Part shown: positions 3,372-27,253 of the stretch, piece by piece
Numbering within the stretch: position 1 is the first letter of the stretch
Layout of the letters: each line of letters opens with the position of its first letter
Assembly (NCBI RefSeq): GCF_000517265.1
Contig: NZ_AYSJ01000014.1
Span: forward strand, 100,431-141,162
Length of the DNA stretch: 40,732 nt
Reading direction: 5' to 3'
From: Photorhabdus khanii NC19
GTDB taxonomy: Bacteria; Pseudomonadota; Gammaproteobacteria; Enterobacterales; Enterobacteriaceae
The notes under the pieces: model-generated
The model's database searches: none
What the model was told of the DNA's origin: nothing
Seen by the model: only the letters and a program-made list of their open reading frames with translations
Translations under genes and position numbers: made by a program

Positions 3372-3445
3372 AAGAACAGGCAGAAAGTCGGGTTATCGTG
3401 TTATCGATTATAACAGTAATGCAGATAATTTATTTGATTAACTTA

Positions 3446-5267: not shown

Positions 5268-5457
5268 AATTATCACTCTATAGCTACTAAAATAAGTTAT
5301 TTTATGTAAGTTATTTTTGTCCCTTGTCGATTTGATTAGTTAAGGGGGGAAAGTTTATTAAAGAGGTATGGGAATGCATGAGATTGACTATCTTAAATAA
5401 ATTTTTAAAGAACAGGCATGGATAAATGAGTTAAACTCTTTTGCGAAGTTAAAAATC

Positions 5458-8403: not shown

Positions 8404-8427
8404 GTTGACTCCAATCCCACTGAGTAT

Positions 8428-10527: not shown

Positions 10528-10536
10528 ATAAACCTT

Positions 10537-12096
10537 TTAAATGTTTTGCCAGTCAATTCGTAAAGGGCGATCCAGCCAGGGAAGTTTGGCGATATTTAAT
10601 GGCCACAGCCAATCGGCCAATAATGCGTCGAATGGTTGTTGTTGTATTGTAATATTGATTTCCTGTTCATTGATTCGCAATTCACCCGGACGTTGTAAGA
10701 ATAATTGGCGGACGTCATTGTGGCTTAATTTTTTCCAGGCAGGAAGTTGGGTGATAATAGCATCCAGCCATTGTGTGGTTATTAATTGTTTTTCTGGTTC
10801 AATAGAGATTGATTCACTATTTTCATCAGCCATTAACCCACATAGAACGTTATTCAACATTTTTCGTTCTGTTGGTGTTTCTTCGGTTTCCCAAATCAGG
10901 TAGTCAAGGAAATTGACGGCACTAAACTGGGCCTGACGATGGATAAATTTTTGTTCCTCAAGTAAACCAAGCTGATTAAATAGTGCTGGTAGCATCGGCC
11001 ATAAAATTAATATTCCGGTGTTACTGACTTGATATAGGGTGGTTTTTTCAGGCAATAAAACGGATTTAGAATGTGACTTGTTGATAGTTCGAAGTTGGCT
11101 TCGGTTATTGACTCCTGTAACGGATATATCCGGTGCTGATTCTGAATTGGATCTATTTTTATCTGCTTTATTTGAAATAAAGTGTTCCGATAGATATTGG
11201 TATTCTTGAACTGATAGATGTTTTTTACAGAGTTGTGAAATAGGAATTGTTTGCCAGAGCTGTTTTAGCCACTTATTTAACGGGGAGTGGTGAGTTACAG
11301 CTTGACGAAATAATGTCATAATAGGTTCATCATGTTGTGAAATTTTATTTAGCTCGGTTGTGATATGAGATATCACTTTTGTATCAGGTTTGGGGATGTT
11401 CTGTGTATTATGCCGTTGTATATATCTCAATGCATTGAGTATCAGTTGCCCGGGTGAGACTGGTTCCTCCTGATATTGTGGTTCGTTGGTGTTTTCCGAT
11501 AATCTGCGATTGATGGCGCTTAATAAAGCGGGTTGTCTGATAGCCAAGAGTCGTTTTAAACTCTGTTCGGACAAACAGCTTTTTGCTAATAATAACGCGG
11601 ATTTGTTTTCTATTTGTGTTAATTGATTTATTAATTTTTTGATGTCGTTATTTCTATTATCTTCTATTGACTCCGTTAGGTTTAATGGGGAATGTTTCTG
11701 ATATAAAGAGTGAATGAAATTCTCTGTATTAATTAAATTGTTATCGCCAGATATAGAAGGCTTATCGGTGATTTGATTTGATATTGTTTTATTTAGTAGA
11801 ATTTCTTCCTTATGGTTGTTTATCTGATATTGGCTGAATGCTTTATTTAGTTCCATCTTGAGGCGAGCAGGAAACAGTGAATTAAAATCATGAAAATTTA
11901 TTTCACCAAGATTGAGGGTTAATGTTTCTAAAGAGATATCATGATGAATGTTATATTCATTAAAGTATGAATTGAGTAATTTATTTATACTGGTTTGATT
12001 AAGCAGGGAGCCATGTAATACTTTTTTAGCTACCTGTTGATTATTAGCTTCAATAGTAATTGTAATCCGGTTTAACAGATTTGGCTCCGAATTCAT
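10537..12096 (-). CDS. pvc14: Pvc14, tape-measure protein
   Basis: This 519-residue protein matches the contractile-injection-system tape-measure family. The N-terminus MNSEPNLLNRITITIEANN followed by SINKLLNSYFNEYN and ISLETLTLNLGEINFHDF is characteristic. The C-terminus (WLWPLNIAKLPWLDRPLRIDWQ) is the conserved tail that links to the baseplate. The middle (about 95-340) is Asn/Ser/Gln-rich and largely helical. Tape measures set tube length and occupy the lumen before cargo. The ATG at 12096 follows an AAGGA site at nine bases. It sits between the fibre and ATPase genes, as in known PVC operons, only nine bases before pvc15. Confidence 0.85.
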   Translation of the reverse strand: MNSEPNLLNRITITIEANNQQVAKKVLHGSLLNQTSINKLLNSYFNEYNIHHDISLETLTLNLGEINFHDFNSLFPARLKMELNKAFSQYQINNHKEEILLNKTISNQITDKPSISGDNNLINTENFIHSLYQKHSPLNLTESIEDNRNNDIKKLINQLTQIENKSALLLAKSCLSEQSLKRLLAIRQPALLSAINRRLSENTNEPQYQEEPVSPGQLILNALRYIQRHNTQNIPKPDTKVISHITTELNKISQHDEPIMTLFRQAVTHHSPLNKWLKQLWQTIPISQLCKKHLSVQEYQYLSEHFISNKADKNRSNSESAPDISVTGVNNRSQLRTINKSHSKSVLLPEKTTLYQVSNTGILILWPMLPALFNQLGLLEEQKFIHRQAQFSAVNFLDYLIWETEETPTERKMLNNVLCGLMADENSESISIEPEKQLITTQWLDAIITQLPAWKKLSHNDVRQLFLQRPGELRINEQEINITIQQQPFDALLADWLWPLNIAKLPWLDRPLRIDWQNI

Positions 12097-12159
12097 ATCA
12101 ATATATCCTTGGTAATGAGTAAATAATAAATAATTTAAAACTGTATTTGTGAAATAGAA

Positions 12160-13344
12160 TTAAAGTTTCATAATAAAGGCTAATAAATAATAGGGCGGAA
12201 CTACATCAACGCTATGGCTATGTGAAGGGGATGAGGCTGTTGCTTGGTGATTATGTCCTTTCCCTTCGCCTGTTTTTGATGTGTATGCGTAACGAGGTGA
12301 AGTGGCTTTAGTCATTCCTACGGAGGAAGGGTTGTTGTTTATTACGTCTGTCGATGTCTCTGGACCGAAAGAGGTTTCATATTGCATTCCAACATTCATA
12401 TAATAAGCCATTCCCCCAATGTGTTGATGACTAGGTATTTGTGATTCTGTTAACGTTGTATTTTGCACATTAACAGTGACAGAAACTTGAGTTGATGTTG
12501 TATTCTTGGAAAAATTTTTTCCATTACCACTCCCACTGGCTTTACTGCTGCTTTTTCCTGTCTCAGAAATAGTTTCACCACACATGACAAAACGACTTCT
12601 TAAATCTGGAACTGTAACTCCATTATAAGTTCCTCCATCACAAAATGCCCAACCTGTAGGGGAACTATTACCAGAGAACATCACAATCATTCCTCTGGGA
12701 AGTACTTTGTTAGGATCAATACTGACACCGCTTGAATTAACAGTGATACCGTTACCGGCTTTAACTTTTACACCATTTTTACTCAGGCTCAAACCACTTA
12801 CACCGCTCCAGGCATTACTTGGATTTCCTCCCTCTAATTTCAAATAAAGACCAGTATTATCAGTTACCACAATACCGCCCCCGTCCCAACATTTAACAGC
12901 TATACCCTCTGAGTCAACGGAAATACTGCCATTATTCTTGGCCTTAACTTCTACTCCATTTCCACTAACAGTAATACCATTACCTTGACCAACACATATT
13001 CCGTTGTCTTTATTAATCAGACCACTACCAAGCTCTACGGATAAGATATCTTTTTCAAGTATTAATGGCGAAAAGTCTTGGCTAGCAAGCGTGCCCATTT
13101 TTAAATTAAGCGTACCATTATCATCCAGCTTCAATCCTACTCCTGGTCCATTTTGTTGCGGTGCTTGCCCGGTTGCTTTACGACCAACATCCGCAATATC
13201 AATCAAATCATTAAAATCCTTTTGTAAAGGAATACTGCCGTCTTTAAATTTATCTTTTAATTTATCAGTCTCAGGCCCAATACCTTTTGAGTCAGTTAAT
13301 GTTTGTTGCTCTTGTGTTTTTACAGAATAACGAATTTCTTTCAT
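12160..13344 (-). CDS. pvc13: Pvc13, tail-fibre / receptor-binding protein
   Basis: The start is set at 13344 (MKEIRYSVKTQEQQ) because a GGAG site lies six bases upstream; an ATG at 13356 would itself overlap that site. The 394-residue product begins with a baseplate-attachment region. It continues (about 85-225) with glycine-rich repeats of the type NGITVSGNGVEVKA and NGITVNSSGVSIDPN, like triple-beta-spiral shafts of phage and adenovirus fibres. It ends in a phage tail-collar domain (PRGMIVMFSGNSSPTGWAFCDG...VPDLRSRFVMCG) with histidine clusters (HQH, GHNH, SHSHS). The fibre decides which cells the particle binds. This is the most variable part of the structural operon and the best clue to host range. 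Confidence 0.85.
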   Translation of the reverse strand: MKEIRYSVKTQEQQTLTDSKGIGPETDKLKDKFKDGSIPLQKDFNDLIDIADVGRKATGQAPQQNGPGVGLKLDDNGTLNLKMGTLASQDFSPLILEKDILSVELGSGLINKDNGICVGQGNGITVSGNGVEVKAKNNGSISVDSEGIAVKCWDGGGIVVTDNTGLYLKLEGGNPSNAWSGVSGLSLSKNGVKVKAGNGITVNSSGVSIDPNKVLPRGMIVMFSGNSSPTGWAFCDGGTYNGVTVPDLRSRFVMCGETISETGKSSSKASGSGNGKNFSKNTTSTQVSVTVNVQNTTLTESQIPSHQHIGGMAYYMNVGMQYETSFGPETSTDVINNNPSSVGMTKATSPRYAYTSKTGEGKGHNHQATASSPSHSHSVDVVPPYYLLAFIMKL

Positions 13345-13399
13345 GGCTAACTCCATAAACTATGTTTAATCTAAAATTGTGATTAGTAGATATTTTTGC

Positions 13400-16327
13400 T
13401 TATTCGTTCTCTTTCGGAACATAGAACAATTCATTCTGGATTATCTTTTTGGTATTCCACTCATCGTTGTTTTCACCGACAACTTCCTCTCTTTGGTGCG
13501 GTGTAGCAATTTGCATTGTTCCTATGCCTTTTAAAGCAGAAGGTAATGTACCTAATGTCAGGCTTTCCAGAATCGAATAGGCAGAATCACCCAAAGGTGC
13601 ACCATTATTTTGCCAACGTTGATAAGTCATGCCGAAATTTAAAAATGCGTCCCGATCCATCCAGTGAATAATCATAGAAATATGGGCAGGGAACTCGGTA
13701 AGAATGGTTTCTTTAACCCATTCTTCTAGTTTATAGGGATCAACACCGGGCATGTTAATTGAATCACTGTTTACGACTACGCTGATAACAAATGAGAAAC
13801 GATCGGTTTTTTCATAATCCTTACCTGAAAAATACCAACTGTATCGCCGGGCTTCTTTCGGAGCAGGGAACTTCAATGTCGAACTATTCTGACGTTCAAT
13901 AATCAAGGTACCCTTGATGCGATCAAAGCTGACAACTTTTGCATACAACTTTTCTGATTCATCTGCATATTCCTGTGTAACTCCTGTTACCCCTAAATGT
14001 TTGGTCAGGGTAATTTCATTACCTACCGCAATCAGGGACGGGAAGGGGGTGTATGCTGTGCGGGTCAGACGCCGCTGGTTGTCAGGCAATGGCTGGTCAT
14101 TCAGGGATTGATCACTATCGTAGGCCAGACGGTAGTTCATATCTTCCATCCAGACCACGCTGTTTTGCCAGAACAGTTTTTCCGCGTTGTCAGCGGCTAT
14201 TATCCGTTCCAGATTGTATTCCAGTTGCGTACTATTACCCACGTCCAGCCAAAACTGATCTTCCTCGGCTTTGACTATCATCTGACCACGCACTGTAAAT
14301 TGGGTGTTGCCCTGTTCGCCTTCACAGAGGATTAAATTGATCACTTGCCCCTGTCTCAGCTTGCCATTAATACTGTCTTGCTTAATCACCAGATAAGGCG
14401 GTTTTTTGGTCTGGCTCTCTTCCTCTTTCTCTTCTTCTTCCTCTTTCTCTTCCTTATATACACAGTCCGGCTTCTGCTTTGTATCAAACTGGCTATTGGG
14501 CTTGATTGGCAGCAATGCCCGGTGTTCCACCAGATAAAAAGGCAGTTTGCTCAGATTCAGATCAGGCTTCGGTTTAAACAGATCATCGCCTAACCCTATA
14601 CGGGCAGCAATGCGCTTTTGCAGCGAAGAAACCTGATCAATTCGAATGTTGGCACGGTGATAAGTTAATGTCGGTTGTTGAGCCAGATAGCTCTGTTGCA
14701 CAGTGAGAAAATCATCGATGGGGGTGGTAAAGGTATGTGGCGCCCGTTCAGTGCCAAAATAGCCGAGCAGGTAATTGACGATATCCAGTTCGTGATCGCT
14801 ATCGAGGGCGATCTGTTTTAACAGTGCCTTTAATGCAGGGGCGTAATCCTGATGGGCTTCATCATTGACAGAACCCGGCTTAAACGGCCACTGATCACCC
14901 CAGACTTCATATCCCTCGCGCTCAAAAGCCAACAATTTCGGCAGCATGGCAATTTGCTGGCAACCACAAGCCAGCATTTGTTCAAATGGCAACATAAACT
15001 GATGAAGTGACAACAGGCGTTGAACATGTTCACTCTCAGACAAGGGTTGTTGTAACCCATAGCAAGCGGGCAGCGTATCGCTGACGGGATAATAACTAGC
15101 TACATCGCGATGCCGACCGTAAGCCAATACCACAGGTTCATTCTGAATCAAAGGTGGATTAGGTAAACTGTTCTGAATTTGTTTTTCATCAACCGTAACG
15201 CTGATCCCGCCTTTGGCGATCACCCTGAGCGGGCCATCCTGTTGTGCCAATTGATGGAGCGGATCTTGACCCCACAAGCGAGGGTAATAGCCTTCTTTAA
15301 TTGACCATGACCAGCTATCCTCTTTGATCGGTTCAATCAAGGTCTTGTCAAAACTATCGTCCAACTGAAGGCGATTCACATTCTGAATACCCTTAATCTC
15401 AAGCAGTTTATTAACCAGCCGGCTAAGATTGAGTATGATCCGTTGCGTATAGTCACGGGCTGTCGGCAATTCAGGGATCCAGCCATGTTGCAACTGTGGC
15501 CCTTCAAAGATTTCATCATTGTACATTCCGGCATCTTGCAGTGTTTCAGTGCGGTAACGCTGTGCCTCAGGCATCAGATACTGCTCTGCGGTGCTATAGA
15601 CGGCCGCGAAAATACCGGCGACATCCTGTACATCATCACCCAGTTCGATATCCAGTAATAGCGGAAAATCAACCGGTTGTGACCAGATAATCTGACTGAC
15701 TGACTCCCCGATATTGCGGTTATCGGTTAAAAAATCCTTCAATTGTTGGGTGGCGGTGGCTTTGTTCTTTTCTGTATAACGGCTGGGTTCCAGATAAAGC
15801 CAGTAATTTCCCCGCAATACAAACTCTTTCACATTTTCACTATCACCCTTTTGGAAACTATATTCCCTTGTGTCCGGATTATACCAATAGGTATACCCCA
15901 GATTTTCCGGTTCACGTATCAGTTGCACATTACGGAACAGAAAATCTTCTTTATTCTGTAGAGTAGTTTCCCCTGCCCAGTCGCTGCTATGCAGGTCCAG
16001 CAACGCTCTCCGATAATCATCGGTAGTGATTGGCCCACAAGTCAGCGTCTTATGAGGGCCAAATTCAGCGGGAAAAATTCCGTCTTGCTGGATCTGGTTA
16101 TCTGGGGCAGGAGTCAGTAAATCTGCCAGGGGAAGGGTGTGACGGTAAGCCAAATCTGACACACCGTAACTGAGTCCTTCCAGAAAGGTGATGCCGGGGT
16201 CGTGTTCCGCCGTGTCGCTCCACAGTTTTCCGGCCTGTTGCCCAACCACCTGATGGGCTTGTTCCAGTAAGGTATCAAAGTGAATATCGTCTTTCACTTT
16301 ATGAAACAGTGCATCTTGATTATTCAT
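13400..16327 (-). CDS. pvc12: Pvc12, large baseplate protein (gp7/J-like)
   Basis: This 975-residue baseplate component corresponds to Pvc12/Afp12 and occupies the expected place between Pvc11 and the fibre. The N-terminus (HKVKDDIHFDTLLEQAHQVVGQQAGKLWSDTAEHDPGITFLEGLSYGVSDLAYR) is the conserved baseplate-J-like opening also seen in Pvc11-type proteins. An unusual Glu/Lys-only segment (VYKEEKEEEEEKEEESQTKK) lies around residue 625-645, coded by a purine tract. The first codons overlap the end of pvc11 by eight bases (ATGAATAA), so translation is probably coupled. With Pvc11 it builds the wedges that hold the hub and trigger sheath contraction. Confidence 0.87.
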   Translation of the reverse strand: MNNQDALFHKVKDDIHFDTLLEQAHQVVGQQAGKLWSDTAEHDPGITFLEGLSYGVSDLAYRHTLPLADLLTPAPDNQIQQDGIFPAEFGPHKTLTCGPITTDDYRRALLDLHSSDWAGETTLQNKEDFLFRNVQLIREPENLGYTYWYNPDTREYSFQKGDSENVKEFVLRGNYWLYLEPSRYTEKNKATATQQLKDFLTDNRNIGESVSQIIWSQPVDFPLLLDIELGDDVQDVAGIFAAVYSTAEQYLMPEAQRYRTETLQDAGMYNDEIFEGPQLQHGWIPELPTARDYTQRIILNLSRLVNKLLEIKGIQNVNRLQLDDSFDKTLIEPIKEDSWSWSIKEGYYPRLWGQDPLHQLAQQDGPLRVIAKGGISVTVDEKQIQNSLPNPPLIQNEPVVLAYGRHRDVASYYPVSDTLPACYGLQQPLSESEHVQRLLSLHQFMLPFEQMLACGCQQIAMLPKLLAFEREGYEVWGDQWPFKPGSVNDEAHQDYAPALKALLKQIALDSDHELDIVNYLLGYFGTERAPHTFTTPIDDFLTVQQSYLAQQPTLTYHRANIRIDQVSSLQKRIAARIGLGDDLFKPKPDLNLSKLPFYLVEHRALLPIKPNSQFDTKQKPDCVYKEEKEEEEEKEEESQTKKPPYLVIKQDSINGKLRQGQVINLILCEGEQGNTQFTVRGQMIVKAEEDQFWLDVGNSTQLEYNLERIIAADNAEKLFWQNSVVWMEDMNYRLAYDSDQSLNDQPLPDNQRRLTRTAYTPFPSLIAVGNEITLTKHLGVTGVTQEYADESEKLYAKVVSFDRIKGTLIIERQNSSTLKFPAPKEARRYSWYFSGKDYEKTDRFSFVISVVVNSDSINMPGVDPYKLEEWVKETILTEFPAHISMIIHWMDRDAFLNFGMTYQRWQNNGAPLGDSAYSILESLTLGTLPSALKGIGTMQIATPHQREEVVGENNDEWNTKKIIQNELFYVPKENE

Positions 16328-18509
16328 CGTTATTTCCTCGGCATTGCAGCTTATTGTCTGCTTCCCAGACTAAAATCAGCACCTCATTATCTTTGGCTTC
16401 CACCGATACGGTGATATCACTGCCTTTAGCCGCATCCGCCCGACACAGTGTCAGACAGGTGACCCGCTCAACCAGCGGCTGCTGTTGAATGGTCGCCAGT
16501 AACTGGTAATAGTTAATGTTGTTATTCAACATAACGGGTCGCTGCTCATCGACGCTCCAGGGCATATACGCCTCACTGAGTTGCTGCCGTAGCTGGCGAT
16601 AGCCAAAATCGTTGTTAACATCCGGCTTAAAAACCACCGTGTAATTAATGTTCACATCAACATATTGGGGATTGTTGATCTTAATCTCAGCCCAGGAAGA
16701 GGCTTTTTGCTGTAACCACTCGGCCATTTCTTGCAGACGTGCCGGGTTTAGTACCGGACGCAAAGGGTCATCGCTGTCGTTGTATCGGTTGGCAGGAATG
16801 ATTGTCAGTTTCTGTTCCTCCAATGTCGGTACTCGGGTGAGTTCATCATTGCCTGGGTACTTAACATCAAAGATGCTGACATAACGCTCTTTTAACAGTG
16901 TCGCCATATTGTCCCAAGTTAAGGCTCGGTTACGGTGGGACAGGTGTTGAGCTCCCCGTTCAAAAAAAGCGCTGTCGGTTTCCGGTACACGTCCATTCCA
17001 TGACGCCCAAGGCTGGCTGATTGAAGCCACGACAATGATGGGTTCAACCGGACGCTGAATAGTGCCTGCCGGTAATGGCGTTAAGAAATGGCTGTGACTG
17101 ATGTTATCGGCATTCACCAATGTTGCTGTCAGGGCGTTATAGATCAGACCGTATAACCAAGGGCTTTTTCCCCATGAGCCGTTATGTGTGGGGATAACCA
17201 CGATTGCCTTTAACCAATAGCGTCCCGCTGGCATCTTTGTTGCCTGTTTGGAGGCGTCAGCGGGCAGTACAACCTGCCAGGTGCCATCCTGATACAAATG
17301 TTTGGTTTCATCATTGACCCACGCATCCAATGCAGCCCATTGATTTTCTTGATTCAGGTAATACCAGGAAACTTTTTCGGGTTGCTGCGGTGATTTTAAT
17401 TTCCAATATAGCGATAAGGTCTGTCCCGGCTCGACGTCAGTGATACCGAGATATAACGCGGGGTTTGCTTCCAATGGCTCAATCTCATGACTATAACCAA
17501 AGGGGGTGATGTGATACGTTTCGAACGAGGCTTTATCTACGGCCTCTTGCACTTTGAGTTCGGTCACCGTGGGCAGTGCCTGGCTGTCTTTTCCCTGTAG
17601 CCGGAGTACTGGCTGGGTGAAAACCAGGTTATCCAGATCCTCTGGCGCACTGATTGCCGGCTCTTTATCCGAAAGTGTCAGGATAACTTCTTTTGTATTT
17701 TTCCCGTGAGTTAACATTAAGGCCAGCCATTGGTTGCCACTGCTGATTTGTGCCAGCAAACTTTGGTTGTCTATGTCTTTCTCAAAGGTAACAGTTATCT
17801 TTCTGGTCCCTTCTTCCATCGCCAACTGTGCGGAAGTGATCAACACACCGCCCAGCACAGATTTATCCTGATCCGTTTCACTGAATAACCGTATCCCATC
17901 AGATGGCAATGCTATCTGTGCCTGTAAATCCCAGGGGGTCGCGCTAACCCATTGCTGCTGTTCTTTATGCCGTAACCAGTACAAGTCACTGATATAGCCT
18001 CGGTTCGCCAGTAAATTGGCATCCAGCGCATATTGCAGGGCATTGCCTTGTTCATCTTGCTCCGCTTCAAACAAGGTGCCTTTAGTGAGCAGTTGCTCTG
18101 TGACGGTTGAATTCAGTTCCACCGACAAGGCAACCTGATCGGGTTGTGCCGGGCGGGGGGACAGCCCCAAAAGCGCCCGATAATAGAGATTGCGATGAGC
18201 CGCAGGTAAGGTATTCAATAAGGAGATTGGTGTTTCCAATAATCGTAATACCGCTAATAGAAAAGCTTGATGAGGTAATAATTCCCCATTGGCTTCGATT
18301 TCCCCTTGATATAATTCAGCCAGTTTCTCCGGCGTATTATTCGCCATAAAGAAAAAGTCATTCCAATGTTTATTGCCCTGATTGAAGGGAATGATTTTGG
18401 TGTACTCTTCAATATATTGGAGTAATTGCAAACTGGTTCGATTATATAATTTAAAACCGTTCGTCGGCATCAAGTCTGACAATGTATTATTTAACTCAGT
18501 TAATTCCAT
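16320..18509 (-). CDS. pvc11: Pvc11, baseplate wedge protein (gp6/J-like)
   Basis: The start at 18509 (MELTELNNTLSDLMPTNG) has an AGGTGAT site five bases upstream. An ATG at 18560 has no such site and would add 17 atypical residues. The 729-residue protein matches Pvc11/Afp11, the gp6-type baseplate J protein. It has an N-terminal helical region (KLAELYQGEIEANGELLPHQAFLLAVLRLLE), a central beta domain, and a C-terminal J domain (YVDVNINYTVVFKPDVNNDFGYRQLRQQLSEAYMPWS). It is followed by pvc12 with an eight-base overlap and preceded by pvc10 with an 84-base gap. Confidence 0.87.
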   Translation of the reverse strand: MELTELNNTLSDLMPTNGFKLYNRTSLQLLQYIEEYTKIIPFNQGNKHWNDFFFMANNTPEKLAELYQGEIEANGELLPHQAFLLAVLRLLETPISLLNTLPAAHRNLYYRALLGLSPRPAQPDQVALSVELNSTVTEQLLTKGTLFEAEQDEQGNALQYALDANLLANRGYISDLYWLRHKEQQQWVSATPWDLQAQIALPSDGIRLFSETDQDKSVLGGVLITSAQLAMEEGTRKITVTFEKDIDNQSLLAQISSGNQWLALMLTHGKNTKEVILTLSDKEPAISAPEDLDNLVFTQPVLRLQGKDSQALPTVTELKVQEAVDKASFETYHITPFGYSHEIEPLEANPALYLGITDVEPGQTLSLYWKLKSPQQPEKVSWYYLNQENQWAALDAWVNDETKHLYQDGTWQVVLPADASKQATKMPAGRYWLKAIVVIPTHNGSWGKSPWLYGLIYNALTATLVNADNISHSHFLTPLPAGTIQRPVEPIIVVASISQPWASWNGRVPETDSAFFERGAQHLSHRNRALTWDNMATLLKERYVSIFDVKYPGNDELTRVPTLEEQKLTIIPANRYNDSDDPLRPVLNPARLQEMAEWLQQKASSWAEIKINNPQYVDVNINYTVVFKPDVNNDFGYRQLRQQLSEAYMPWSVDEQRPVMLNNNINYYQLLATIQQQPLVERVTCLTLCRADAAKGSDITVSVEAKDNEVLILVWEADNKLQCRGNNDE

Positions 18510-18593
18510 AATATCACCTGTGTGGCACAGAGATTCCTCTGTGAATAAAGGATTATTCACACTGTTTAATTTCGGTTTGTTTCAGCCAATGCC

Positions 18594-19019
18594 TTAATTC
18601 ACGGTGGCAAAATTTTGTTGAGTGATAAAACTGCCTTTGCCCGATGAAGGCGTTGTAACATCCGGTTGCGGCGGGTTCACGGTATTATTGATGGCGGGTG
18701 ATTGAGGCGTAAACATGGCTGTAAACTTCTGCCCCTTGATAATTAAGGCCGCGCCACTGGTACATTGAAGGGCTTGCTGGCTGGCATCCAACGCACTGAT
18801 GGTAATGGTGCCGGTTCCCGGTGTTGTATGCATTGCTGTGATATAGGTTGCAGAAACCCTGACTTGTTTCTCATCCCCCAGAATGCAGACTTTCTTGCCG
18901 TTTACCTGCGCATGTCCTTTACCGCTGATCTTACCCGGGCTGGAAACCGTCACCTGTCGATTTCCAAAGTTGGGATCAAACTGGAGTATGTCACCGTCTG
19001 TCACAATGGACTCACTCAT
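18594..19019 (-). CDS. pvc10: Pvc10, PAAR-like spike tip
   Basis: This 141-residue protein fits the PAAR/DUF4280-type tip that caps the VgrG-like spike in contractile injection systems. Short beta repeats with glycine turns run through the core (DILQFDPNFGNRQVTVSSPGKISGKGHAQVNGKKVCILGDE, TGTITISALD, GAALIIKGQKFTAMFTP). Cysteines (VCILGD, LQCTSG) and His residues are present, as in metal-stabilised PAAR tips. The C-terminal 25 residues are Pro/Asn/Ser-rich. The ATG overlaps the pvc9 stop codon by four bases (ATGA), indicating coupled translation. Confidence 0.82.
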   Translation of the reverse strand: MSESIVTDGDILQFDPNFGNRQVTVSSPGKISGKGHAQVNGKKVCILGDEKQVRVSATYITAMHTTPGTGTITISALDASQQALQCTSGAALIIKGQKFTAMFTPQSPAINNTVNPPQPDVTTPSSGKGSFITQQNFATVN

Positions 19020-19438
19020 ACCACCTCCATTACCCGACCTTCACTCAGTGCCAGTGTTCCCTGAATTTGCTGATTGATATCGCTTCCCCGCAGGCGGTAC
19101 ATGACCTGCACTTGCAGGGTATTCTTGCTGTTTGGTGATTGAAGAACTTGGATATCCGTAATATCCGCCCGTGATTCATAACGCAATACGCTGTCATGGA
19201 TACGGGATTCAATTTCAGCAAACAATTCGTTGCGGATATTTTCAAACATAAAATCATTTAATCCGCAGCCATAATTTTCGCGCATCAGGCGCTCCCCCGG
19301 CTCAGTGCTGAACAGAATGTGCAAACTCTGGCGCACATCTTCCGCCCCCTCAGCCATTTCCACCCCCTTTTCAAGGGAAAACGCGGGAGGGAACGCCCAA
19401 CCACGACCATAGAGTTGTGTCAGTATTTGGTTTTCCAT
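19016..19438 (-). CDS. pvc9: Pvc9, gp25-like baseplate wedge protein
   Basis: This 140-residue gp25/IraD-like protein shows the hallmark block EDVRQSLHILFSTEPGERLMRENYGCGLNDFMFE, containing the EPGER motif conserved from T4 gp25 to T6SS TssE. The remainder supplies two beta strands with an intervening helix (IESRIHDSVLRYESRADITDIQV). In T4 this protein anchors the first sheath ring to the baseplate. It begins a few bases after pvc8 (AAAGGTGAA site) and its stop overlaps the pvc10 start. Confidence 0.92.
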   Translation of the reverse strand: MENQILTQLYGRGWAFPPAFSLEKGVEMAEGAEDVRQSLHILFSTEPGERLMRENYGCGLNDFMFENIRNELFAEIESRIHDSVLRYESRADITDIQVLQSPNSKNTLQVQVMYRLRGSDINQQIQGTLALSEGRVMEVV

Positions 19439-19448
19439 TGTTCACCTT

Positions 19449-21065
19449 TCACTGGGTAAGATTAATTTTGGCACCTTTGATTTCAACACTGTTTTTGCCG
19501 GACAGATTGAGCGATTTATCCATTTGGGCATTCATTGTCTGCGCTTTCAGTGTTAATTCTTTTTTCGTTGATAGAGAAATATCTTTATCCTGTTGGAGCG
19601 TGATTTGATTATCTCCCGCATTGATTCGGATAATTTTTTCTTTGCCATTGATGACAATTTGTTGTTGGTTTTCACCTTGTTTAATCACCAAAATTTTTTC
19701 CTGATTATCTTGGGTAGGTTCTAAAGGTGCTTTATTTTTCGGATTGTGCATTGCCCCCAGAATCACCGGATAACGTGGATCACTTTCAAAGAATCCGACA
19801 ATCACTTCGTCACCGGGTTCCGGGTAAAAACAGAAACCGCTTTCGTGGCTGGCGTAAGGTTTCCCTAGTCTTGCCCACAGAAATTCATTCGGGCGATTCA
19901 ACACCGGCAAAATAATCGGAATGCGGTTCAAGGCTGCCTTGTCCTGCTGATACTTTGCTACTGTCGCAATATGCAGTTCGGGGGCATCGGGCAACACGGG
20001 CAGATATTCCTGTTGTAAGCCCATGCTCAGGGTGGTTTCCCAATCAATTCGCCGGTTAAAACGATGGCGAACCGCAGTAATGCTGGCTGTACCATCCAAT
20101 TGTGAACCAAATCCCGTTAATTGAATGTTATCCCCTAACTGATAACGCCCATCGCCTTTAAGCCGGAATTCGCCTGTGACGCCAGAAACACGCTGATTCA
20201 GCAATAGTCCCTGTGCCAGATAGCCGCTTTCTTGGGTGGTTAACGGACTGCTGTAGCGAATATCCCAACTTGTTTTATTCAAAGACGCCAGCCTATCAGG
20301 GGAGAGTGCCGCTTTCCCCACGGCAACACTGCCGTAGCGGCCACCTGACAACTCCTGTTGTTTACTGATATCCCAGCCACTGACTTCCAGTGAAGCGGGG
20401 TTAAGATGATTGTCAAACTGCCAGCTTGCATCTTTGACGACGATATCTTTTTTCTCATCCCCCCGGTTTTTCAGGGTATAGGTTGAGTTAGATTTCAGGG
20501 ATTCAGGTTGGACAAGTCGGGCGCCTTCTGTCGTGGGTAACAGCCATACGCCAGTGGCTGATAGCCGACACAGCAGAAAACGCCAGTCTGAACAGCGAAA
20601 TTGCACCATCTGCTCATGCTTTTGATCTAACGCGGCTATCTGTTCAAAGTGAGCCTTGATGCCAGCCTGATTCAATAGGGTGTTTAAGACGGATTTTTCG
20701 TTGCTGTCTTTAAACAGTTGTGAATGTTGGGTATCCACCATCAGTTGCAAGCGATGTTTGACGAGCAACGTGAGCAATAATTGCTTATTTTTGATCTTCA
20801 ACGTGTTACGGGTAATCAGGCCGTTAAACAACACCGATTTCCGGCCGCCATCAGTCACTTCCAGACGCAGGGTTTTGCCTACTTGACAATGGGCCAGTTC
20901 TGCCTGTACATCTGTCTGGCTGAAAGAGGAAAGTGGCCTGTCCGGCAGGCTGAATTTCAGCGTTGCCGAAGGGATGCTGTTAACACGGTAATAGGTATCC
21001 ACATCGACGGCGGCCAAAAGAGACAATACCTTGCCATCTGCAATAATTTTCAGTTGATGGCTCAT
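19449..21065 (-). CDS. pvc8: Pvc8, VgrG-like central spike protein
   Basis: This 538-residue fusion of gp27-like and gp5-like parts forms the trimeric spike. The N-terminal region (about 1-350) has the gp27 tube-docking domain. The OB-fold shows the classic WARLGKPYASHESGFCFYPEPGDEVIVGFFESDPRYPVILGAMHN run (about 395-440). The C-terminal 100 residues alternate hydrophobic and polar positions (QQIVINGKEKIIRINAGDNQITL), typical of the triangular beta-helix needle. No additional effector domain is fused to the tip, so cargo must be carried elsewhere. The start overlaps the pvc7 stop (ATGA). Confidence 0.93.
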   Translation of the reverse strand: MSHQLKIIADGKVLSLLAAVDVDTYYRVNSIPSATLKFSLPDRPLSSFSQTDVQAELAHCQVGKTLRLEVTDGGRKSVLFNGLITRNTLKIKNKQLLLTLLVKHRLQLMVDTQHSQLFKDSNEKSVLNTLLNQAGIKAHFEQIAALDQKHEQMVQFRCSDWRFLLCRLSATGVWLLPTTEGARLVQPESLKSNSTYTLKNRGDEKKDIVVKDASWQFDNHLNPASLEVSGWDISKQQELSGGRYGSVAVGKAALSPDRLASLNKTSWDIRYSSPLTTQESGYLAQGLLLNQRVSGVTGEFRLKGDGRYQLGDNIQLTGFGSQLDGTASITAVRHRFNRRIDWETTLSMGLQQEYLPVLPDAPELHIATVAKYQQDKAALNRIPIILPVLNRPNEFLWARLGKPYASHESGFCFYPEPGDEVIVGFFESDPRYPVILGAMHNPKNKAPLEPTQDNQEKILVIKQGENQQQIVINGKEKIIRINAGDNQITLQQDKDISLSTKKELTLKAQTMNAQMDKSLNLSGKNSVEIKGAKINLTQ

Positions 21066-21754
21066 GGTGCGTCTTCTCCTTTGGTGGCCTGTAATATTTC
21101 ACCCGGTACAAACCCATTGAGGTTATCCAGACCGTTTTGCCAGGCCAGTGTCAAATAATCGACGCCGCCGGACAGAGTTGATGCCGTACTCGCTGCCATC
21201 AGCGCCAGCGATGCGCCATCTTGTACCCGTAAGGCGATTTTTGCCGGCGATTTCAGGTTCTGTTCTGTCTCCTGCAAGACCAGACTTTCATCCGCCACCA
21301 GTGTCAGGATAACCCGCGCCCGCAAGGGAGTGGCATCACGATCAAACAAGGAGTAACTCACAGACAGATCTTTCGCCCTGCCGGCAAAATAACCGCGATT
21401 TTCCCAACGCATTTTTCCCCATTTAATTTGCAGGAACCGCGTTTCACTACTGGTGGCATCCACGCTGCACAGTTGTTTGAGCTGCATTAGCTGTGCTTCA
21501 ACGGGGGTTTTGTTACCCGGCATCGTGGCATCAAAAATCAGCTCAAGGGATAACTCTGGGGGCCTGGTCTGTACATAAGTACTGCTTTGTTTCTCGCTAT
21601 TAATAGCCTGGGATTGTTGATAATTCGTTTGATAATCCAGTTGCAGGGAATCGGGGTTATACATGGCTTGCACGGTGCCTGCCCGTATTTTTCCTTCCCT
21701 GTCTTTATAAGCATTAATGGTCAGCTTCGCTAAACCACGTTCAATCAGACTCAT
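21062..21754 (-). CDS. pvc7: Pvc7, LysM-type hub/tube-initiator adaptor
   Basis: The start at 21754 ([16 protein letters not shown]) is preferred over a GTG at 21763 because its ATG overlaps the pvc6 stop as ATGA, a coupling pattern used repeatedly in this operon. The 230-residue product resembles Pvc7/Afp7, the gp53-like protein that joins hub and baseplate and is often annotated as LysM-containing. Key stretches are [81 protein letters not shown], and the C-terminal [11 protein letters not shown]. It is translationally coupled at both ends. Confidence 0.87.
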
Positions 21755-21948
21755 GGACGCCACCCTTCCTCATCGCGTAATGCGGCCAACACTTCGCGTT
21801 TAATTTTTTCAATCAAGGTTGCTTCATCCAGACTTTCCTGAATCAGCGAATGGCCTTGTTGGTCTGATTCAGTCGCTTGCGTTGGTCGTATTGGAGCTGA
21901 TGACACCACTTTTGCCTGAATGATTAACTCTCTGATTTCTACTGTCAT
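21751..21948 (-). CDS. pvc6: Pvc6, small conserved structural-operon protein
   Basis: The start is placed at 21948 ([15 protein letters not shown]), three bases beyond the pvc5 stop overlap, giving 65 residues, in line with the short Pvc6/Afp6 proteins. The sequence has a beta-like start, a Thr/Gln/Ser linker and an acidic-basic helix ([23 protein letters not shown]). Proteins of this kind in related systems often start EIRELxIxA. It is thought to be a minor assembly or baseplate component; its function is not established. Its stop overlaps the pvc7 start. Confidence 0.8.
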
Positions 21949-22403
21949 ACTTTGACTCCCAACCAGCACATATCCTGATAGCGTAGTTCAAGGGTATTCA
22001 CCAAAATGGCGTTGCTGTTCGCGTCAAAGTCGCCGGTTTGCCAGCGTACCGGCAAGGCATTGCTCAGTGTCCAACTGGATACGGGCAATAAATTTTCGTT
22101 TAACAGCATAATCACCACATCTGCATAGGCGATTTTTTCTCCGCGCAATACGCGGTCAAACATCCAGGTCAAAGGAGAAACCGTCATCACGCCACGTTCC
22201 AGCGTTAATGTGCCGTGTTGGATCTTCTCGGCCAGATAGTTATTGCGGGCGTTTTCGCCGCCTTGACTGTGCTGGGTCACCTGAAGCTCCCGACTCAGGC
22301 CGGAAATGCGCTGAAAGCGGATATCCAGCGGATCGGGAATGCCATTAAAAATAAAACTCGCCATAAAACGGTGGGATACCACGGGGGTGTAATAATCGTT
22401 CAT
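21945..22403 (-). CDS. pvc5: Pvc5, second tube-family protein
   Basis: This 152-residue gp19/Hcp-like protein is related to Pvc1. It is thought to form the initiating ring between spike and main tube. The fold signature is visible as [31 protein letters not shown], the TLTLERGV strand, and the C-terminal [15 protein letters not shown]. An AGGAAAG site precedes the ATG. It lies between the third sheath gene and pvc6, overlapping the latter slightly. Confidence 0.88.
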
Positions 22404-22418
22404 TGTGCTCTTTCCTTC

Positions 22419-23639
22419 TTAAGACAAAAGTGCTCCCGTTTGGGTATCAAAGACCAAACTGATCTCAATAAATTCAGCGGGAGACAATACGGCTAGGGCG
22501 ACTTTCATAACCATTTTCCCGGCACGGATATCCTCTTCGGTCATCGTCTCATTTACCCCTAACAGCACAGTAAATGCCTCATCTTCCTGTGATCCGTACA
22601 AGCCGCCCTGTAACCACAATTGCCGTAACCAGTTGTAACTTTGCCCCTTGCATTTCATCCATGTCAGTTCGTTATTGGGTTCAAAGATGTACATACGGGC
22701 CAATTGCGCCAAATGTACGGTGACATAAGAAACCAGACGCCGGGTTTGCAGGTAACGCCATGGCGTATTATTGGTGTTTTCCAGCGTGCGGCATCCCCAT
22801 ACGCGTATGCCTTTGCCGGGGAAACTGCGGATCAGATTCAGCGAGGCGCCATCCGGGTTAAAGAGTGCATTCGCTTCAATATAAGAGCGGACCGGGCTAA
22901 TCACTTTGGCTAACGCGATGTTGGCGGGGGCAGTCCATACGCCTTGTTGGTTATCGTTACGCTGGATGACGGCAGCCACTGCGGCGGTCGGTGAAAGCAC
23001 GATAAAGTTTTGTTCTTTATCCTGATCCGGATAGGCACTGTTTAGCCTTGGCCAGTATACGGCACCCCATTGTCGATCATTTGAGGAAAACTGCGCTAAA
23101 CATTTCTTTGCCAATTCAGGATTATCCGGGGCATCCAGTAATCCCATGATGCCGCGTCGGCTCTTGCAAAGATCGAGTACGGATTGCCAGGACTGTAGCC
23201 AAAATTGAATTTTTTTGTGTTGAGCTATGCCTACTAAATCAGGATCGTCCATCTGATTAAGGTAGACAAGATCAGGGACGACGATCAGCGTGATTGCGCT
23301 CTCTGCGGTAATCGCTTGTTTAACCCAATCCTGTTGCAGTGTGGTGGTCAACGATTGAAAATCATTTAGCTGTCCATTAAGACCTAGTGACAATACATAG
23401 GCTTGCTGACCGCCGTTGTCAAAAAAGTGACGCACGGAATAGTACATTAATCCCGTCTGTTTAAATGACAGGGTAAAATCGGCCAGGCTATTGAGTTTGA
23501 TGGCGGTTTTATCACTGGCCTGGTTATTTTCAGCAGGTTGGGTATAGCCGATAAAAACTGGTATACCGACAAATGCCTCATCTTGTTTCTGAGATATCAG
23601 GTTCTCCGTGATGGTGACGCCGGGCTGTGTTATTTCCAT
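22419..23639 (-). CDS. pvc4: Pvc4, sheath protein
   Basis: This 406-residue contractile sheath subunit is the most diverged of the three in this operon. It keeps the N-terminal ITQPGVTITENLI arm, the central PTAAVAAVIQRNDNQQGVWTAPANIAL block and the C-terminal RVWGCRTLEN, WRYLQTRRLVSYV, FEPNNELTW and EEDIRAGKMVMKVALAVLSPAEFIEISL sheath core. In related particles this paralogue occurs at the baseplate-proximal ring. The start has a GAGGAAA site. Confidence 0.9.
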   Translation of the reverse strand: MEITQPGVTITENLISQKQDEAFVGIPVFIGYTQPAENNQASDKTAIKLNSLADFTLSFKQTGLMYYSVRHFFDNGGQQAYVLSLGLNGQLNDFQSLTTTLQQDWVKQAITAESAITLIVVPDLVYLNQMDDPDLVGIAQHKKIQFWLQSWQSVLDLCKSRRGIMGLLDAPDNPELAKKCLAQFSSNDRQWGAVYWPRLNSAYPDQDKEQNFIVLSPTAAVAAVIQRNDNQQGVWTAPANIALAKVISPVRSYIEANALFNPDGASLNLIRSFPGKGIRVWGCRTLENTNNTPWRYLQTRRLVSYVTVHLAQLARMYIFEPNNELTWMKCKGQSYNWLRQLWLQGGLYGSQEDEAFTVLLGVNETMTEEDIRAGKMVMKVALAVLSPAEFIEISLVFDTQTGALLS

Positions 23640-23687
23640 TCTTGTTTCCTCAATAGAACAGGCGCGGCGAACCGCGCCTCAGTAGGG

Positions 23688-25043
23688 TTACTGTGTTACA
23701 TTTTGCGAAAATTGCAGGATAATAAATTCAGCCGGGCGTACGGCAGCCATACCGATTTTGACGATCATCTTCCCTTGTTTAATATCGTCGTCAGACATGG
23801 TGATACCTTTACCAATCTGGACAAAATAGGCTTCATCTGGTTTAGTTCCTGCTAAACCACCCTGTTGCCACAGTCGATACAGATAGTTATTGATGGCGCT
23901 ACGTACTCGTTCCCAGGTGGGTTGGCTGTTGGGCTCAAAGACGGCAAATTGCATTGCCTGCTTGATATCGCGTTCTGCGCTATTAAATAAACGTCGAACT
24001 GGAATGTAGCGCCAGTTATCATCATTTTGCAGAGTACGTGCGCCCCACACGACAAAGCCTCGATTATTGAAATAGCGGATGGCATTGATGCCTAATGGAT
24101 TCATGGTGCTTTGGTCATCATCGGTGAGTCTTTCGGTAACATCACTAATCCCGTTAAGCACAACATTCGCTGGTGCTTTCCAGACACCACGGCTGGCATC
24201 AGTGGCACAATATATGCCAGCCATGACAGCACTGACAGGAATGGTGTTGTCGCTGGAGGCTATTTCGTCCTGTATTGCTTGAACCGCTTGTTGGTAGACA
24301 GTTGGGTTTTTCTCTTTGAGTTGCGCCAGGTTTTTGACTTCATCGGGTTTTGTTTTTGCATCTTGATAACCTGATACTGCTATCTGGCTATCTTCTGCTT
24401 GGATAAGTTGTGAGACTTTAACTGCCGGATAATACGTTGCGGTTTGTGATGCTACGTTAGTACTGGGTAAGGTTGTTTTGTCCTTGTTGTCAGCGATAAG
24501 GAAATAGCCGGCATTTAATAAAGAGGTTAGGCTGCCATATATCGCCTTCTGGTTATAATCACTTTCTTTAAGGCAGACTATCAGTGTAATTTCTAAAGCC
24601 TGTTCAATTAATTCAGGGATTGAGTCCAGAAATCCTTCTGTTAAATGACTTGGTCGTGGCAGGATATAACAAGGCCCTCCACCATTTTGGAAATAAAGTT
24701 TTAAAGCATCACTGCTTGTCGTGTAGGTATCGGCATTGACATCGTAATTGTAACCGGTGCTTTCATCTTTGGCTTCTGTATTACCTTCTTCTTTTCCGGG
24801 AGTAGGAGGCACTGGATTAGGCGCAGTTGATGTGATTTCTACCGACGTAATACAACCTACATTAAACAGATTAGTAAAATCCAGCCAGCTATTAACGCGT
24901 GTTACTTGTGGTATTGGATTGGTTTTTTTTGGCGAAAAAACGCCAATAAAAATGGGTATTGCCGTGTTCCCCTGATTAACAGAAAGGTTTAATGAAGTAT
25001 CTTCTTCAATATAGACGCCAGGATAAGTCGGTATTGTTGGCAT
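23688..25043 (-). CDS. pvc3: Pvc3, sheath protein with enlarged outer domain
   Basis: This 451-residue contractile sheath subunit shares with Pvc2 the N-terminal TYPGVYIEEDTSLNLSV arm and a nearly identical C-terminal core (NWRYIPVRRLFNSAERDIK, FEPNSQPTWERVRSAINNYL, DDDIKQGKMIVKIGMAAVRPAEFIILQF). It differs by roughly 100 extra residues, including a Pro/Glu-rich insert (TAPNPVPPTPGKEEGNTEAKDE) and a long surface segment (about 200-270). Those should lie on the outer face of the sheath. Pvc3 is a minor sheath paralogue next to the baseplate in known particles. A GGAGGCAAC site precedes the ATG. Confidence 0.92.
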   Translation of the reverse strand: MPTIPTYPGVYIEEDTSLNLSVNQGNTAIPIFIGVFSPKKTNPIPQVTRVNSWLDFTNLFNVGCITSVEITSTAPNPVPPTPGKEEGNTEAKDESTGYNYDVNADTYTTSSDALKLYFQNGGGPCYILPRPSHLTEGFLDSIPELIEQALEITLIVCLKESDYNQKAIYGSLTSLLNAGYFLIADNKDKTTLPSTNVASQTATYYPAVKVSQLIQAEDSQIAVSGYQDAKTKPDEVKNLAQLKEKNPTVYQQAVQAIQDEIASSDNTIPVSAVMAGIYCATDASRGVWKAPANVVLNGISDVTERLTDDDQSTMNPLGINAIRYFNNRGFVVWGARTLQNDDNWRYIPVRRLFNSAERDIKQAMQFAVFEPNSQPTWERVRSAINNYLYRLWQQGGLAGTKPDEAYFVQIGKGITMSDDDIKQGKMIVKIGMAAVRPAEFIILQFSQNVTQ

Positions 25044-25054
25044 GTTGCCTCCAA

Positions 25055-26119
25055 TTATTGAGTGGTGTTCTGTGTAAACTGCAAGATAATGAACTCTGCT
25101 GGACGAACCGCTGCCATACCGATTTTGATGATCATTTTTCCCTGTTTGATATCGTCATCGGTCATGGTGATATCTTTGCCAATTTGAACAAAGTAAGCTT
25201 CATCTGGTTTATTTCCCGCTAAACCACCTTGCTGCCACAGACTATACAGATAGTTATTGATGGCACTGCGTACTCGTTCCCAAGTCGGTTGGCTGTTGGG
25301 TTCAAACACCGCGAAGCTCATGGCATTTTTAATATCCCGCTCCGCGCTGTTAAACAGGCGGCGAACCGGGATATAACGCCAGTTATCTCTGTCCTTAAGA
25401 GTACGAGCGCCCCATACCAGTGTGCCGCTCTTAGGAAAGGTGCGGATCATATTTAGTGCTTTATCTTTGTTATATTGTCCTTGCAGCTCATCAGTCACCG
25501 GATATTTAGGTTGTAATCCACCTTGAATAGCCACGTTAGCCGGTGCTTTCCAGACGCCACGGGTGCTATCGACAGAGCAATAGACACCAGCAATAGCAGC
25601 ACTTGGGGGAATATCGATAGTAGTAGTCCAATCGGCGGTTAACCAGGGGTAGTAAACGGCAGCAAAAGGATTTGGGTCATAATCGCTGTTGGGTGTGCCA
25701 TCGGATTTTAACTCTGTGGTAGGACCATCAAAAATAGCAAATAAACCTTTGCCCGGTTTGCAAAGTGTACTTACAGCAGTAGTAATATCTTCTCCGGCTG
25801 CAATCAGCAATGTCACATCGTCAAGTTTTGGCACTTGTTTTTCTAAATCTGTGGTTTTGACCAGATAGCAATATCCACCACCGTTAATAAAATAAGCGCG
25901 CAGTGAGATATCAAGTGTATTGGCAGGATCAAATTGTTTATCTTTTAGTGTCAGATATTCCAGCCAGTTACTAATGCGAATATAGGGCTTATCTGATATT
26001 AATGGATTGCTATCTGCGACAGCAAAAACAGGCACTGCCGTTGCACTGGAACTAACGGAGAGTGACAGAGAAGCGTCTTCTTCAATATAAACACCGGGGT
26101 AGGTCGTTGATGTGGTCAT
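25055..26119 (-). CDS. pvc2: Pvc2, main sheath protein
   Basis: This 354-residue protein is the compact sheath paralogue and the likely major one. It has the TYPGVYIEEDASLSLSVSSSATAVPVF N-terminal arm used for inter-subunit strand exchange. It also has PPSAAIAGVYCSVDSTRGVWKAPANVAI and GTLVWGARTLKDRDNWRYIPVRRLFNSAERDIKNAM, and ends in AVRPAEFIILQFTQNTTQ. The sheath surrounds the tube and contracts on target contact. The start has a GGAGAG site and lies 15 bases after pvc1. Confidence 0.94.
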   Translation of the reverse strand: MTTSTTYPGVYIEEDASLSLSVSSSATAVPVFAVADSNPLISDKPYIRISNWLEYLTLKDKQFDPANTLDISLRAYFINGGGYCYLVKTTDLEKQVPKLDDVTLLIAAGEDITTAVSTLCKPGKGLFAIFDGPTTELKSDGTPNSDYDPNPFAAVYYPWLTADWTTTIDIPPSAAIAGVYCSVDSTRGVWKAPANVAIQGGLQPKYPVTDELQGQYNKDKALNMIRTFPKSGTLVWGARTLKDRDNWRYIPVRRLFNSAERDIKNAMSFAVFEPNSQPTWERVRSAINNYLYSLWQQGGLAGNKPDEAYFVQIGKDITMTDDDIKQGKMIIKIGMAAVRPAEFIILQFTQNTTQ

Positions 26120-26134
26120 AAAATCTCTCCGTTA

Positions 26135-26584
26135 TTAAGCCGCTTGAATGGTTACACGATCTGCTGTCAGGGCTATTTCCTGAACAGCGATTTCATTGCT
26201 GGTGGCATCAAAATTGGGGGAGGTGTATGAGGTCGGGAAGGCATTCGCTACGTTCCAGGTCATTAAAATTTCGGTGCCGGCTTCATTGGTTAGGCTAATT
26301 GCAATATCTTTCTTCTCAACTTGATTAAGTTGAATAGAATTAATCCAATCAAACAGTTTAGTGTCGCCAGGGAAGACTCCCTTACGCAGGGTAATATTGA
26401 TCGATTGACGTTGGCCAGGCATTTTATAGTAATTACCGGTGCCATCTTTATATTCGATGACATCATAATGAACATCAAGCCCGGAAACATTGTTAAATGG
26501 GATTTGCTCGTCACCAACTGAAACAACAAATCGATAAGTAGGAATGGGATATTCAACAGCGATTTGTTCTGAATTTATAGCCAT
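26135..26584 (-). CDS. pvc1: Pvc1, major inner-tube protein
   Basis: This 149-residue gp19/Hcp-like tube subunit is the first gene of the operon. Signature blocks are YPIPTYRFVVSVGDEQIPFNNVSGLDVHYDVIEYKDGTG, KMPGQRQSINITLRKGVFPGD and the C-terminal FPTSYTSPNFDATSNEIAVQEIALTADRV. Rings of it stack to make the rigid conduit that carries cargo. The ATG at 26584 follows an AAGGAAG site. The 5' leader contains an ops-like element about 85 bases upstream, which likely sets expression of the whole cassette. Confidence 0.94.
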   Translation of the reverse strand: MAINSEQIAVEYPIPTYRFVVSVGDEQIPFNNVSGLDVHYDVIEYKDGTGNYYKMPGQRQSINITLRKGVFPGDTKLFDWINSIQLNQVEKKDIAISLTNEAGTEILMTWNVANAFPTSYTSPNFDATSNEIAVQEIALTADRVTIQAA

Positions 26585-26667
26585 GATTCTTCCTTTATTA
26601 GTTATTGATGTTTAAAATTTAAGAAAATTACTATTATTTTTTACTAGCATTGAAAATATGGGTATGG

Positions 26668-26675
26668 CTACCGCA
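26668..26675 (-). promoter_or_regulatory. ops-like element (RfaH recruitment site) in pvc leader
   Basis: The minus strand reads TTGCGGTAGCCAT here. The GCGGTAGC core is identical to that of the RfaH ops element (consensus GGCGGTAG followed by variable bases), with one mismatch in the first position of the 8-base core. It sits about 85 bases before the pvc1 ATG on the coding strand, the normal leader position of ops/JUMPstart sites that precede long virulence operons. The self-complementary GC...GC ends needed for the non-template hairpin are kept. RfaH binding is inferred. Confidence 0.6.
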
Positions 26676-26746
26676 ATAATCTGATTATTAAAGGTTATTA
26701 TTCATGATGGATATTCTTTTGATTTGTGAAAATAATTTTTATTTTA

Positions 26747-26776
26747 TTCATATCATTAATTAACAAAGTGATTCAA
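26747..26776 (-). promoter_or_regulatory. Possible sigma-70 promoter for the pvc operon
   Basis: On the minus strand TTGAAT (plus 26771-26776) and TATGAA (plus 26747-26752) are separated by 18 bases. Each matches four of six consensus bases. Initiation near 26740 would place the ops-like element about 65 bases into the transcript. In a region this AT-rich such matches arise easily, so the call is weak. Confidence 0.25.
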
Positions 26777-27253
26777 GATAAGTTTTTTAATAATGTTACA
26801 TAACCGACATTTTTATATAATTTGTAATAATTAAGTCTGATTATTGAAAACGGTGGGTGATATTAAATGTCTGTGAATTTTTTATTTCACTATGAAGGAA
26901 GGAGTTCATGATAAGTTAATTATCTGGAATAAACTTATATTGGGATATCTGCTGTGCTTAAAGTTAATAAAACTCATCCAATGTTTTGAGTACACAGCCC
27001 AGTAGATAGTTGTGCGAAAATTTTTTCATAAGGCAGGAGAATATAAAAAACTTGACGTTTTATTACAAATGACCATTAATTATATATATGATTTTAGTTT
27101 CAATATGTTTTCCCTTTAATTAATAATTTTAAGATGAAATTATAATATTAATATACTACCTATCAGTTTAAAGTTCAACAAATAGCGATTTGTAAATAAA
27201 GTTTGTGTAATGTTTTTGACTTAAGAAATCTTTATTATCTCATAGGAAAAATT

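Follow-up and report, generated by a model that had tools for sequence, protein, structure and literature searches.

PVCs are widely used protein delivery tools. In the sections of Vlisidou et al. (2019; PMC6748792) drawn on here, two motifs are described for the leaders of their operons. Class I and III operons have the RfaH operator GGCGGTAGNNT; class II operons and PVC units 1-4 have a cryptic motif (CAGGTTGXTGCGGTAGCTAT). RNA-seq of those authors' operons places both motifs between the transcription start and pvc1, and the cryptic one is given there as found in pvc loci only, before pvc1. The authors kept it apart from the RfaH operator and speculated on a cryptic regulator; this main conserved leader motif was left unexplained. 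The same sections mention that an rfaH deletion was attempted in TT01 without success and point, on the strength of other RNA-seq data, to a possible dependence of motif-bearing operons on Hfq and HexA. The ops element has been dissected base by base in E. coli (Zuber et al., 2018; PMC5995543). According to the parts of that study used here, C3:G8 closes a hairpin on which RfaH contacts G4-A7; G5 and T6 are read by K10, H20, R23 and R73, with H20 contacting T6. RfaH can bind complexes halted at C9 and at G10 too, and the ops pause depends on T11 and G12. Every ops substitution tested there lowered RfaH action, T11G being among the single changes with the strongest effect, except G2C, the sole substitution of G2 that was tested. 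A 2026 preprint, in the portion consulted, describes RfaH homologues as inactive on its non-canonical ops sequences, whose changes differ from those treated below.

We analyzed a stretch of 40,732 nt of Photorhabdus khanii NC19 (NZ_AYSJ01000014.1, positions 100,431 to 141,162), hereafter the window. It carries a PVC structural operon from pvc1 to pvc16 on the minus strand (7501..26584), with sheath, AAA ATPase and Pvc16 domains in the genes tested. The first gene, pvc1 (26135..26584, minus strand), encodes the inner tube protein as judged by a Phage_T4_gp19 domain match, and pvc16 (8403-7501, minus strand) is the last structural gene. The first open frame past it (6391..7335) lies on the same strand as the operon, has no Pfam match and is presumed to be cargo. 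Between pvc1 and the divergent gene lies an intergenic leader region (26585..27253, taken on the minus strand) with a G+C content of about 22% in the 300 nt adjoining pvc1. The 580-aa product of the divergent gene (27254-28996, plus strand) has a Hint-type domain close to its C-terminus; the gene adjoins PilS and a prepilin peptidase gene. Past the other end of the operon, 2594-5276 (minus strand) contains a piece of a DDE transposase and a frame of 193 aa; the frame matches the end of DUF4765 only and the region looks partly broken up.

The leader contains an ops-like core, TGCGGTAGC, at 26667..26675 (minus strand), which corresponds to ops positions 1-9 with T replacing G1 and is hereafter called the T-type core. 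The initial annotation had reported such a site about 85 bases before pvc1, and the site is real, with 82 nt measured from the end of the core to the pvc1 ATG (26584). The interval it gave, 26668-26675, is the right place and covers eight of the nine core letters (26675-26667); GCGGTAGC occupies 26674-26667 on the minus strand. Its count of one mismatch holds against the ops 9-mer GGCGGTAGC and rises to two against the published operator pattern GGCGGTAGNNT, since position 11 is A and not T; the exact pattern has no match at the site. The core is part of a 20-nt motif, CAGATTATTGCGGTAGCCAT (26664..26683, minus strand; G000:C14:127094-127113), which is an instance of the cryptic motif published for PVCs. 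It differs from CAGGTTGXTGCGGTAGCTAT in 3 of 19 letters and reads CCAT where the published motif has CTAT. Comparison of copies and a covariance model also place an inverted repeat upstream, with its 5' arm AATAACCT at 26692..26699 and its 3' arm AGATTATT at 26675..26682 (both minus strand), the last letter of the latter being T1 of the core. The covariance model scores the site at 62.3 bits, itself one of the 46 sequences from which the model was built, vs 11.0 bits for the next-best place in the window, and its scan found no second copy there.

Short ops-like words are not rare in the window. Over its whole length the ops 9-mer with one mismatch occurs 12 times vs 4.37 expected, and the 11-mer with two mismatches 24 times vs 20.3 expected. 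Exact matches to GGCGGTAGNNT are not enriched in the same genome (40 vs 76 for the reversed control pattern) and do not outline an RfaH regulon; three of the six such sites whose surroundings were examined lie inside open frames. In simulated 300-nt leaders of 22% GC, a 9-mer of this kind appeared on the coding strand in 3 of 20000. A chance match was considered and ruled out by the identical 9-mer in 36 of the 51 pvc1 leaders of the genus. With up to three mismatches, the full motif has eight reverse and no forward matches in this genome (the sequences of all eight and the surroundings of seven were examined). A scan of the window leader for promoters and terminators gave nothing above shuffled sequences (6 promoters found vs 6.2 expected).

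Alignment of orthologous leaders, a check that the initial annotation had proposed, bore out its expectation of conservation. Pvc1 was searched in 38 genomes and is present in 12/12 of Photorhabdus and in one outside the genus; leaders were taken for every full-length pvc1 gene listed in the genus (51) and for the single outside one. TGCGGTAGC is identical in 36/51 Photorhabdus leaders (12 genomes), while 13/51 have the canonical GGCGGTAGC at the same place. Two of the 51 carry neither core, and neither does the leader from outside the genus. In PVC operons L137 (G011) and L138 (G003), the 700 nt upstream of pvc1 contain no ops-type core. The T-type core stands 82-89 nt from the Pvc1 match in 25 of the 36 leaders (range 53-213), and conservation of these leaders is highest at the element (0.85-0.92 vs about 0.6-0.79 around it). 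Positions 10-12 read TAT in 41 and CAT in 5 of the 46 distinct copies, hence YAT in 46/46. In a Pvc1 tree of 53 rows the T-type leaders are clustered (2 changes vs a shuffled mean of 13.9); 23 of the 50 inner branches are open, and therefore one origin of these leaders is not separable from two. The motif is thus real and conserved in Photorhabdus pvc1 leaders.

An exact scan for CAGGTTNNTGCGGTAGCYAT across 84,980 species returned 63 places, 33 of them in Photorhabdus (31 before a pvc1) and one in Xenorhabdus mauleonii, upstream of a pvc1 that is 84% identical. The other 29 are in other organisms, and in the adjoining DNA examined no pvc1 follows any of them. The scan demands CAGGTT, and therefore the window copy and the distal copies described below are absent from its count. 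Among 392 genomes of the family, 24 pvc1-type loci were found beyond the genus, six with the canonical GGCGGTAGC, four with one mismatch to it and 14 without the core; the T-type core occurs in none of the 24. The afp-type operons of two Serratia plasmids carry the canonical GGCGGTAGC in the leader.

The inverted repeat accompanies most copies of the core. AACC-(9 to 12 nt)-GGTT stands directly before it in 44/46 copies, the A-T version included, and the GGTT arm lies constantly 11 nt before C9 in an alignment without gaps. The distal units have A-T in place of C-G as the fourth hairpin pair, with both sides changed; a change on both sides was seen in 1/8 hairpin pairs. The arms pair in 86% of cells, vs 17-46% when slid against each other. 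Covariation did not separate from the shuffling controls, 89 to 497 of 500 shuffles reaching the observed values. The upstream stem is better than 95% of shuffles in 30/46 copies; the window copy is not among them (p 0.18), nor is any of seven leaders from other genera. Ten leaders were folded, with z of -2.0 or lower in five and not in the other five. The window copy folds no better than its shuffles (z -0.32), because one C-G pair became C-A, a pair that its two nearest relatives keep. In L149, a class III leader with the canonical core, the best fold predicted is a different one from the suspected stem. Searching the window leader with the Rfam JUMPstart model (RF01707) gave no match at E up to 10, apart from two chance matches to other families. 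Among ten other leaders the model hit L197 alone, at 18.8 bits and under the gathering score of 35; it therefore misses most PVC leaders, canonical ones included.

Scanning the 12 genomes with the covariance model built from 46 copies revealed that the motif is not limited to pvc1. At E < 0.001, and among the best 150 candidates at most per genome, so that weaker copies may be missed, at least 50 places were found: at least 36 pvc1 leaders, at least nine distal collar/photopexin units, at least three payload leaders and at least two orphan leaders, with one extra payload leader at E = 0.00106. Among the candidates scored, all matches at E < 0.001 are confined to PVC loci. The distal copies (G000:C14:36871-36890, L151, and those of eight other genomes of the genus, L363-L369 and L179) are near PVC loci and precede two genes, one with a collar domain and one for a hemopexin/PA-IIL lectin (photopexin). 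Both genes give full-length matches in G000, G002 and G004. In G009 and G005 the collar is missing and the photopexin partial, in G008 the photopexin is split, in G011 the collar has one stop, and the matches are partial in G010 and also in G006, there at the edge of a sequence stretch. The payload copies lie 41-162 nt upstream of a frame of more than 1149 codons in G002, G004, G005 and G007, with the motif as CAGATGGATGCGGTAGCTAT or in a weaker form (L275/L371, L276/L372, L277/L373 and L278/L370); their position suggests a separate payload transcript. Two T-type leaders are orphans without a downstream pvc1, L278 (G007:C4:35975-36020) and L279 (G002:C2:15749-15794); cargo-type frames start about 0.8 kb downstream of the former. 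The core is changed in the distal copies of G008 and G009 and in the payload copy of G007. Two of these three changed cores, those of G009 and G007, differ at G2, the position at which G2C left the RfaH effect unlowered in E. coli. Those of G008 and G009 precede damaged units; a tie between changed core and broken gene was considered and dropped, as the G007 payload frame is open over at least 1149 codons. The motif itself being already published, what is new here is the base-by-base comparison with ops and its presence before payload and collar/photopexin units and in orphan leaders. In the open-licence literature we found no paper that interprets the cryptic motif as a variant of ops, and none that reports it before payload genes.

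Compared with ops, the T-type core keeps positions 2-9, that is the C3:G8 pair and the loop G4, G5, T6 and A7. The element lacks G1, T11 and G12 and has AT in place of TG at positions 11-12. The reading half of ops is therefore retained and the pausing half is not. The candidate reader is present as a full-length orthologue: RfaH shares 68/96 N-terminal residues with that of E. coli, and K10, R16, R23 and R73 are kept in the 11/11 genus sequences compared (of 12). Residue 20 is N and not the H of E. coli in the same 11/11, and N20 is also found in RfaH of G273, G396 and G415, the last being the X. mauleonii genome. In the RfaH of the window's own genome (L155) residue 70 is H, against N in the other ten genus sequences compared; H70 occurs in one RfaH from outside the genus as well. 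The NusG family consists of NusG and RfaH alone in 10/12 genomes. A third member was found in G000 and G011, and none was seen within a PVC locus.

On the best reading, which we hold in even balance, the site would belong to the transcribed leader and be a PVC-specific ops/JUMPstart variant for the loading of RfaH. This reading starts from the element, its place, its spread over PVC units and an intact RfaH gene, together with the published upstream transcription start; from these we infer that a pause occurs, that RfaH reads the element and that antitermination follows. RNA polymerase would transcribe an RNA hairpin with the arms AACC and GGTT and next the core TGCGGTAGC. The 11 nt from the hairpin arm to C9 would suit a hairpin-assisted pause of the his type, replacing the lost consensus pause. 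The exposed non-template strand would then fold on C3:G8 and present G5 and T6, where RfaH would bind, open, stay on the polymerase together with a ribosome link and carry transcription across the 19 kb of the AT-rich structural operon. RfaH would be loaded anew from the copies ahead of payload and collar/photopexin units, on separate transcripts of the same locus. The RfaH interpretation in the initial annotation is favored by the placement of the core, like that of the canonical ops in sister PVC operons (13/51), and by the conservation of the bases read by RfaH; it is weakened by the loss of G1, T11 and G12, by the failure of RF01707 to match and by the preference of the 2019 authors, in the sections used here, for another regulator. 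N20 in RfaH, the two PVC leaders lacking such a core, the hairpin covariation unsupported by shuffling, the fold of the window copy and the negative result of the preprint count against the reading as well, whereas the hairpin pairing, the restriction to NusG and RfaH in 10/12 genomes and the two cores changed at G2 count for it. The element is not a canonical ops, and the Rfam JUMPstart model does not match it. It is conceivable, and we offer it tentatively, that Photorhabdus PVC loci possess a private antitermination code. One variant JUMPstart, in which ops retains the half that RfaH reads and has an RNA hairpin in place of the half that pauses, would stand before the structural operon, separate payload genes and a distal collar/lectin unit, so that RfaH, or a modified RfaH, serves all transcripts of one injection machine and the pause setting separates them from the canonical ops operons of the same cell. 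Were the motif a variant ops, it would show that RfaH reading and polymerase pausing depend on sequences able to evolve separately, and the payload-unit copies would offer a simple way to co-express structural genes and cargo.

That the motif is the operator of a different regulator, its likeness to ops being inherited or accidental and not read by RfaH, is the view of the 2019 authors, who in the sections consulted separate it from the RfaH pattern (PMC6748792). The confinement of the motif to PVC loci at E < 0.001 agrees with them, RfaH normally serving unlinked operons too, as do the absence of T11 and G12, which are required for the ops pause, and a 3' flank as conserved as the core (YAT in every copy). 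Against this view, 10/12 genomes lack a PVC-linked gene for a NusG-type regulator, and the core occupies the place of the canonical ops in sister operons. The variable AACC-GGTT spacing of 9-12 nt would be awkward for a dimeric DNA-binding protein, and a palindromic operator on the other inverted repeat, GGTAGCYATACC, was tried and rejected because that repeat is present in 29/46 copies only. We consider this explanation, the main rival, rather unlikely.

A post-transcriptional role, with a hairpin or single-stranded stretch serving Hfq and a small RNA in the stability or translation of the pvc mRNA, would account for the possible Hfq/HexA dependence of motif-bearing operons mentioned in the same paper (PMC6748792) and for an inverted repeat in most copies. 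It appears improbable, given that constancy is greatest in the ops-like core and not in the hairpin, that the element is 82 nt or more from most start codons and so distant from the ribosome site, and that the full-motif search found no second, complementary copy within three mismatches in the window's own genome. Decay of a canonical ops, kept by common descent and without present function, could be read from the extra change in the hairpin arm of the window copy, from its CCAT for CTAT, and from the changed cores of G008, G009 and G007, the first two ahead of damaged units. However, the core is identical in 36 leaders with diverged flanks, and in X. mauleonii. In G007 the payload frame past the changed core is open, and damaged units also follow intact cores (G005, and G011 with its one stop); core and gene decay are therefore not tightly linked, and decay is highly improbable as an explanation.

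As a possible variant ops element loading RfaH, the site can be set beside four described systems. The afp leader of Serratia entomophila pADAP (L273), controlled by AnfA1, also belongs to an eCIS operon with an ops-type core; it combines the canonical GGCGGTAGC with AnfA1 as a dedicated, linked RfaH-like regulator (PMC6748792, in the sections used), unlike the PVC loci of Photorhabdus, where a linked RfaH-like regulator is absent in 10/12 genomes. A NusG-family gene was observed in G227 between the lysozyme gene and pvc1 (L192, 2069-2563, minus strand), the core of that pvc1 leader being GGAGGTAGC; this gene is possibly a regulator with its own changed core, in an AnfA1-like arrangement. JUMPstart RNA (RF01707) likewise has an inverted repeat directly before an ops-type core; in the T-type leaders such a repeat is present in most copies and is broken by one pair in the window, and the window leader has no match to the model. 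With the ops element GGCGGTAGNNT, in the parts of PMC5995543 used here, it shares identical positions 2-9 and a place in the leader of a long, AT-rich, horizontally spread operon. It differs at positions 1 (T instead of G), 11 (A instead of T) and 12 (T instead of G), and the consensus pause is therefore lost. The cryptic PVC motif, as presented in the sections of PMC6748792 drawn on, is the same motif as the window copy, at the same place before pvc1 and in the same kind of operon, and it is found here also before payload genes, collar/photopexin units, in orphan leaders and in X. mauleonii.
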